The position numbers were made by a program, and so were the translations under genes. DNA of 46,777 bases. Origin: Desulfovibrio sp. Its GTDB lineage: Bacteria > Desulfobacterota > Desulfovibrionia > Desulfovibrionales > Desulfovibrionaceae. The stretch covers positions 1 to 46,777 of the forward strand of contig JAITNF010000062.1 of assembly GCA_031290615.1 (NCBI GenBank), written 5' to 3'. Numbering within the stretch: position 1 is the stretch's first letter; each line of letters opens with the position of its first letter. The notes under the pieces are model-generated. The model had not been told where the DNA came from, made no database searches, and saw only the letters and a program-made list of their open reading frames with translations. Below are positions 2,739 to 4,695 of this stretch, piece by piece.

Positions 2739-2764
2739 AAAAAATAGAGGTACCTCTATTTTTT
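2739..2764. promoter_or_regulatory. Perfect 26-bp palindrome, candidate MarR operator
   Basis: AAAAAATAGAGGTACCTCTATTTTTT, directly upstream of a -35 box (TTGACT 2766-2771; -10 TATATC 2789-2794; 17-bp spacer). Confidence 0.75.
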
Positions 2765-2801
2765 CTTGACTCCACCGAGATTGCCCCTTATATCTCAATT
2801 C

Positions 2802-2815
2802 AAGAGGTACATCTT
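2802..2815. promoter_or_regulatory. Second, imperfect copy of the operator motif
   Basis: AAGAGGTACATCTT shares AGAGGTAC with the upstream palindrome; lies near the predicted transcription start. Confidence 0.6.
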
Positions 2816-2836
2816 ATTAATCACGAAGAGAATCAT

Positions 2837-3109
2837 ATGTTTGATTTTTTAACAAAAAATCACCGTTCAGGGCATCATCATTTTGGACATCGCCACTCAT
2901 CGGAGCATGATCACGGCTTCGGAGTATCAAGGCTACACCAATGGCTGCATCGGCATGCCGACGGCATACGGCATGTTCAGACTCTGGAAATGAATCCAGC
3001 CCAATGCCCTCACTGCGACAGGCACTGCCCTTTGTCCGCTCCCAAGTGCGGCCAGGGAAAAGCATTTGCTTTACAATATTATACAGAACAAATTAAGGAA
3101 TTAATATGA
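2837..3109 (+). CDS. Small His-rich/Cys-containing protein, putative metal-binding
   Basis: MFDFLTKNHRSGHHHFGHRHSSEHDHGFG...CPHCDRHCPLSAPKCG; stop overlaps the next start (ATGA); RBS-like GAAGAGA upstream. Confidence 0.75.
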   Translation: MFDFLTKNHRSGHHHFGHRHSSEHDHGFGVSRLHQWLHRHADGIRHVQTLEMNPAQCPHCDRHCPLSAPKCGQGKAFALQYYTEQIKELI

Positions 3110-3654
3110 ACGAAAACAATGCCACACCTGATACAACGGTGCATAATGAAACGCTGACGGTGCTTTTTCATCACGCTGTCAAAATCATGGTTCGCATATA
3201 CCATCACCAGGGACATGCCGAGCATGCGCAGACGCATATCCTTGCCATATTGAAAGCCCATGGGTCTATAAATCAACGGGAGTTGTTGGAAATGCTCAAT
3301 GTCCGCTCAACTTCTTTAAGTGAGCTTTTAGACAAACTTGAACACCGGGGTTTCATCACGCGCGCGCGCGACGAGCGGGACAAACGTAACTTTATCATTA
3401 CGGCCACGGAACAAGGCAAGGCCACTACGGAAGGTCATGAGGACGCACGGCAAAAAAACGCGGATGCCCTCTTTGCCTCTCTCTCTGACGAAGACCGACA
3501 AAAATTAGGAGAACTTCTGGGCAAGCTTGTCAACGCTTGGAGGAAAAAATTCTCTGGGCATGATTCAAAACATGAATGCGGCCACAATCACCACAGGCCC
3601 TGGCATGAACATGAATGCGGGCATGAACATCATATCAGTGCGTTCCGCCCTTGA
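3106..3654 (+). CDS. MarR-family transcriptional regulator with His/Cys-rich C-terminal tail
   Basis: wHTH core 'HAQTHILAILKAHGSINQRELLEMLNVRSTSLSELLDKLEHRGFITRARDERDKRNFIITATEQGK'; tail 'HDSKHECGHNHHRPWHEHECGHEHH'. Confidence 0.9.
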   Translation: MNENNATPDTTVHNETLTVLFHHAVKIMVRIYHHQGHAEHAQTHILAILKAHGSINQRELLEMLNVRSTSLSELLDKLEHRGFITRARDERDKRNFIITATEQGKATTEGHEDARQKNADALFASLSDEDRQKLGELLGKLVNAWRKKFSGHDSKHECGHNHHRPWHEHECGHEHHISAFRP

Positions 3655-3678
3655 CTAAGATGAAGTAAACCGCCAACC

Positions 3679-3702
3679 AGCGCCCGTAGCAATGCGGGCG
3701 CT
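3679..3702. terminator. Hairpin downstream of marR, possible terminator
   Basis: AGCGCCCG-TAGCAATG-CGGGCGCT, perfect 8-bp stem 3' of the MarR stop; no immediate U-run. Confidence 0.45.
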
Positions 3703-4695
3703 ATCGCTCCTTACACTATTTTCTTCAACTTTCCATTTTACCCGGAGCAGCCCAATGTTGCTTGCCAAAAATTGTAACCCCATTCCTCAAGTTTTGGAGA
3801 ATGAGAATTACAAGGTGCATGATTTTTTCCTGAAAATCCCCATTGCGAAAATGGTTAATACCTAATTATCCAACAGAAGAGGCGATAGCAATCTCCACTC
3901 CCTTAAATTTTCCCCCTCCCCATATCACGTCCAAAGATGCGCAAAATCACCTAACGATATCCAGAAATATTTGGGATATCTCTTGGGGTATTTTTTCTTT
4001 AATTAAAAATTCATTATAAATTTAAAATATATATTAATATTAATCTAGCTCTGGCACGGCATTGACTTTGTCGTAAGCCGCCAGAATACGTCCAACGGAC
4101 TCAAGGCCGCGCTTCTGTTCCTGAGCCTTTTACACTTCAAGACGCGCAACCTTTGCGGCCAATTTCCGGACTTCGGCTTGCAGATTTTCCTTTTGCGCGG
4201 CCACATGATTTTTAACCGCCAACGCCTTGGTCTGCTGTGCAATAATGTACCGCGCCTGCTTCAAGGCATCTTTGTTAGTTGAACATGGAAGCTGCGGGCA
4301 GCATAGGCTGTTCAGCCAGTTCCTTTTTCGCCTCCTGAGCCCTGACGCTCATAAGACAGCACACATTCACGCATGGCCACTTCTGTCCTGTTCCAGCACG
4401 GCGTTCATACCCTACTCCTCCAGGTGCATGGAACTGATCATTTCTTGCTGCTGTTTGAACTCATTGCGGCAATTCCGTTTGCAGTTTTTTCAGGTTTTCC
4501 CTCGGATATCTTTAAAATTCGTTGACGGGTACGCTAGATCACATCGCAGTCATTTCATAATGGAGACGCTACTTCGCCGTTGATAAATTTGTGCCAGAAG
4601 ACGTGGATGTTTCCACGTGCCAAAAAATTCATTGAAATATTATTTAGATTCGCGTCCGATTATTCACTCAGAATATAAGGGAAAAAATAAATTTT

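Follow-up and report, generated by a model that had tools for sequence, protein, structure and literature searches.

Autorepression is typical of MarR, SlyA and MexR, and the operon described here shares with the MarR family a winged-helix regulator whose predicted palindromic operators overlap its own promoter. It differs from typical autorepressors of the family in the low-complexity Gly/Arg/His tail of the regulator, in a second operator at a nearly fixed distance, in having an undescribed four-cysteine (Cys4) protein as operon partner, and in having nearly no other genomic targets. The operon lies in a 46,777-nucleotide stretch of Desulfovibrio sp. DNA (contig JAITNF010000062.1; hereafter the window), and its regulator belongs to PF01047 (62.8 bits against a gathering cut-off of 24.6, E 2.8e-17).

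The AdcR/ZitR zinc regulators (NF038251) are similar in combining a MarR fold with a proposed metal response, but the window protein reaches only 28.4 bits against their cut-off of 175 and the module is without adc-like uptake genes; in an approximate comparison, positions aligned to the AdcR zinc ligands appear to vary in the family. OhrR-type thiol sensors likewise combine an autoregulated MarR with a small neighboring gene, but here the score is 33.4 bits against a cut-off of 200 and the core is without the reactive cysteine: the cysteines of the window MarR are all in its tail. Outside the phylum, a MarR on the Sporomusa termitida plasmid pSPTER (about 30% identity) has a His-containing tail and a AGGTTCCT palindrome after the -10 box. 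Its gene precedes two ABC exporter genes, not metal genes, and, unlike the present module, such exporter-linked MarR genes of the Bacillota have no small Cys4 gene. In Enterococcus gilvus, a MarR whose tail is rich in Gly, Arg and Pro has AGGTACC sites in its own promoter. These two proteins may be leads to a broader subfamily with exporters, rather than metals, as output. The literature library searched contained nothing on this MarR, its operator or the small protein, and our verdict from the sequence comparisons is that the locus represents a conserved, uncharacterised and apparently self-regulating MarR module.

The operon and its surroundings

A first-pass annotation of the window had described a perfect 26-bp palindrome and a second operator site around a TTGACT-17-TATATC promoter, followed by a 90-aa His- and Cys-containing protein coupled through ATGA to a MarR. 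All of these are present:

2739 to 2764: operator O1, the perfect 26-bp palindrome AAAAAATAGAGGTACCTCTATTTTTT with core GAGGTACCTC, directly 5' of the -35 box (from the sequence and the family motif)
2766 to 2771, forward strand: -35 box TTGACT; TTGAC is kept here in nearly all relatives
2789 to 2794, forward strand: -10 box TATATC after a 17-bp spacer, aligning with TATATT/TATAAC of relatives
2803 to 2814: operator O2, AGAGGTACATCT, just 3' of the -10 box and 57 bp from O1 center to center (the family mode)
2837 to 3109, forward strand: small-protein ORF, 90 aa, His-rich in its N-terminal half
3005 to 3058, forward strand: Cys4 module CPHCDRHCPLSAPKCGQG (C-x2-C-x3-C-x6-C) of the small protein, its four cysteines invariant in 21 aligned relatives
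3106 to 3654, forward strand: predicted MarR-family repressor, 182 aa, overlapping the small gene via ATGA, its core conserved in the family
3547 to 3651, forward strand: C-terminal MarR tail, rich in His and carrying two ECGHxHH repeats; most relatives have a Gly/Arg-rich tail instead
3679 to 3702, forward strand: 8-bp perfect stem with an 8-base loop 3' of the MarR gene, read from the sequence, possibly a weak terminator

The His-rich MarR tail of the earlier description is also there, except that the protein does not end in ECGHEHH as had been read: ISAFRP follows. The stem at 3679 to 3702 has no strong T run, and a consensus scan did not detect it. O1 is the longest perfect palindrome of the window, none of 60 first-order Markov simulations of the window exceeding 22 bp. 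Among all reading frames of the window, His is densest over 30 residues in the small protein and the MarR (10 of 30 residues in each).

Upstream, positions 1 to 2700 hold no long convincing genes, many short overlapping frames and a tRNA (2175 to 2247), and look like degraded genes; a further long palindrome, 24 bp and perfect (AGATAATCTTGATCAAGATTATCT), is at 174 to 197. The genome as a whole (1.59 Mb) is reduced. Among termite-protist ectosymbionts, “Ca. Desulfovibrio trichonymphae” Rs-N31 has a complete genome of 1.4 Mb, and ZnDsv-02 an assembly of 1,611,038 bp in 43 contigs (PMC7608387).

Within the MarR core, R30, Q42 and, in the recognition region, R67, S68, S70, S72 and E73 are invariant in 31 family members. 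H33 and H40 are kept in 28 of the 31 and could form a conserved site, separate from the tail, for an inducer or a metal.

Distribution and the paired operator

The small gene and MarR occur as a pair in about 30 Desulfovibrionaceae genomes and in two genomes from other families of the phylum. A profile search for the small protein in the 348 genomes of the order matched 39 of them at E <=0.01, about 28 of these convincingly, and a MarR adjoins the small gene in nearly all of the convincing loci, as read from their neighborhoods; the match in G026 (L004) is a chance one inside other genes. No relative was found in the viral contigs searched, nor a Gly/Arg-tailed MarR in the plasmids searched, and a genome-contig search with the window MarR retrieved only two MarRs, both unrelated. 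At one locus (L086 of G192, 3088 to 4296), a small Cys4 gene and both perfect operators stand without a MarR beside them and are followed by a flavin reductase-like gene (PF01613).

Within the genus, a close MarR is present in only four of 79 genomes (that of the window, G087, G035 and G102), each of which retains the two operators on either side of the promoter. The gene order is small gene, MarR, Fur in G087, with a CDF gene following in G035. In the sister symbiont G102 (L008/L013) only a stub of the small gene is left and an in-frame TAG lies within the MarR, so that this copy is probably a pseudogene, with both operators remaining. In the MarR tree, the genus-mates G035 and G000/G087 fall into different subclades, each mixed with the genera g32 and g55, a split that points to horizontal transfer or to an ancient duplication.

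The conservation of the non-coding operator across genera is the strongest result of these sequence comparisons. In 30 loci the promoter sits between two AAGGTACCTT-like palindromes, O1 lying 5' of the -35 box (its end 5-11 bases before it) and O2 shortly 3' of the -10; the GG of the half-site is invariant, and the two are 57 bp apart in 17 of the 30 and 50-60 bp apart in the others. Exceptions to the double arrangement are G342 (O1 lost), G180 (contig end) and G185, where the operator call (L075) was spurious and was left out of the count. Phylogenetic footprinting over the 30 loci thus strongly supports the autoregulation through a duplicated palindromic operator that the first-pass annotation had proposed, and the MarR very probably shuts off its own operon through these two matching sites around the promoter.

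Outside its own operon the operator is nearly absent, by genome-wide pattern searches. With up to one mismatch, the 12-mer core AGAGGTACCTCT occurs only at O1 and O2 in the window's genome. AAGGTACCTW hardly occurs elsewhere than at this operon in eight genomes measuring 3.5-4.2 Mb (no site outside it in G283, G285, G301 and G309, about 4 Mb each), and a reversed control motif occurs 7-38 times per strand across the same eight; general avoidance of GGTACC may also contribute to this scarcity. When the 348 genomes were searched for the operator beside -35 boxes, many returned this operon, and the other hits were isolated and scattered. Further members of a regulon do not recur beside -35 boxes in those genomes, and there are almost none in the eight. 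Because the motif is found almost only at its own operon in the eight large genomes, the switch looks strictly self-regulating, and the best reading of these patterns is that the module regulates only itself.

The small protein, the tails and metal-gene neighbors

The region common to the small proteins is limited to the C-terminal end, CPLCDxHCPLxAPxCxKG, in which all four cysteines are invariant in the 21 aligned rows; G176, outside those rows, has Tyr in place of the third. The window protein has no Pfam or NCBIfam family match. DUF3079 (PF11278), also a small Cys protein of unknown function, is matched weakly over the Cys module by one relative (E 0.002), but this best relative reaches 18.4 bits against a gathering cut-off of 27 and the window protein has no match to it. 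PDB matches of the small protein to SAKe designs were taken as spurious, since no reported stretch passes alone. On its conservation, the Cys4 module is a better candidate for general metal binding than the His tails.

Three loci carry small protein and MarR in one uninterrupted frame: L078:1265-2236 (G190), L075:634-1545 (G185) and L011:7698-8546 (G035), the last accompanied by a frame change inside the Cys motif. In L123 (G229), the small gene between the operators and the MarR is short and His-rich and lacks the Cys4 module.

The first-pass annotation proposed a metal switch in which both proteins bind metal, and this idea survives in part. In its favor, the window's clade has His-rich tails, with Fur and/or CDF genes in half of its operons; against it, both the MarR tail and the N-terminus of the small protein are Gly/Arg-rich and almost His-free in most relatives, with the same operators. 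Since most orthologous pairs are of this Gly/Arg kind, metal binding by His tails cannot be the central mechanism. The tree built from MarR cores groups the window protein with 11 others in one clade (support 100/98), nested among Gly/Arg-tailed proteins and holding nearly all His-tailed members. Fur and/or CDF genes lie beside the MarR in six of the 12 members of this clade (G035, G087, G186, G190, G229 and G341) versus one of the 19 others (L097, in a Gly/Arg genome; Fisher p 0.01, calculated for groups of 6/13 and 1/19 and ignoring phylogeny). The CDF matches PF01545 (E 7.5e-41) and the Fur PF01475 (E 2.9e-31). With His tails mainly in one clade and Fur and CDF genes there as well, metal handling is a plausible specialisation of the window's clade rather than the function that defines the family.

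The window operon itself has neither a transporter nor a Fur gene. The window's genome gave no CDF match at E 1e-10, so this operon may be a trimmed version. G035 has two CDF copies (L159, L163), each 58% identical to the G186 CDF, one in the operon and the other on another contig.

Possible roles of the module

The reading we favor, at a probability of about 0.5, is that this is an autoregulated two-gene module which, in the His clade, works in transition-metal homeostasis, with metal relieving repression. A MarR dimer would bind the two palindromes of AAGGTACCTT type, next to the -35 box and just past the -10, and so block its own promoter; repression by the MarR is likely. On losing affinity for DNA, it would allow the operon to make more MarR and more of its main product, the small protein, seen here as a low-complexity Gly/Arg/His arm joined to a Cys4 knuckle that does not vary. 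The arms of both proteins have turned His-rich in the window's clade, where many operons have also gained genes for Fur-family proteins and CDF efflux and the module most likely serves to keep transition metals in balance: once the His/Cys sites were loaded with metal, repression would be relieved, and the small protein would buffer metal. Sequence comparison itself shows the gene pair, the two operators, their near-exclusive place at this operon, the invariant Cys4 and the His tails and metal-gene neighbors of the clade; repression, inducer and metal binding are what we infer. Speaking against the metal reading are the nearly His-free tails of most relatives, the lack of transporter and Fur genes in the window operon and of a CDF match in its genome, the low AdcR score, the exporter genes behind the Sporomusa MarR and the weaker His correlation at one value per genus.

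Another possibility is that the MarR responds to organic or membrane-active toxicants, or to some other stress, the tails being interchangeable low-complexity arms for nucleic-acid binding or self-association and the His enrichment of this clade a matter of compositional drift. This is supported by the predominance of Gly/Arg tails, the fall of His content with GC (rho -0.54 to -0.59), the two ABC exporter genes behind the Sporomusa MarR, and the AGGTACC promoter sites of the Gly/Arg/Pro-tailed Enterococcus protein. However, the His fractions of the two proteins are correlated (rho 0.76), and the correlation survives ranking out GC (partial rho 0.66), though it weakens with one value per genus (rho 0.56, p 0.075); Fur and CDF neighbors are concentrated in the His clade, and the Desulfovibrionaceae operons have no recurrent exporter gene. 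We consider a toxicant switch possible, on balance doubtful.

Less probable is that the small protein is a dedicated partner of the MarR, an anti-repressor or sensing subunit whose Cys4 knuckle senses zinc or redox state and whose arm, matched to that of the MarR, unites the two. The genes are nearly always adjacent and often overlapping, their arms match in composition (in Gly+Arg, rho 0.87, as well as in His), G185 and G190 encode both in a single frame, and almost no other target is visible in the searched genomes; but the MarR and operators persist without the small gene in G341 and with one that has no Cys4 part in G229, the fused frames retain plausible internal starts, and the G035 fusion coincides with the changed frame in the Cys motif. 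That the operon is a decaying remnant, now of little or no use to a symbiont whose genome is reduced, as the degraded surroundings, the state of the G102 copy and the missing Fur and CDF genes might suggest, is very improbable given that its ORFs, Cys4 module, MarR core and both operators are intact, O1 as a perfect palindrome.

A bolder reading, which we think improbable, is a new class of self-contained switch: a MarR and a Cys4 protein with matched, swappable Gly/Arg or His arms for partner recognition or co-assembly at two fixed operators, the His version having become a metal sensor-buffer in gut symbionts.

Since the operon appears to regulate almost nothing else, the system probably exists for the sake of its unnamed small protein. 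That nature offers a series of Gly/Arg- and His-tailed proteins on the same operators makes the role of low-complexity tails on a bacterial repressor directly testable, and would also allow the conversion of such tails into a metal sensor to be tested. For the sulfate reducers, an uncharacterised but widespread regulator now has a defined operator, namely two copies of AAGGTACCTT that are usually 57 bp apart.
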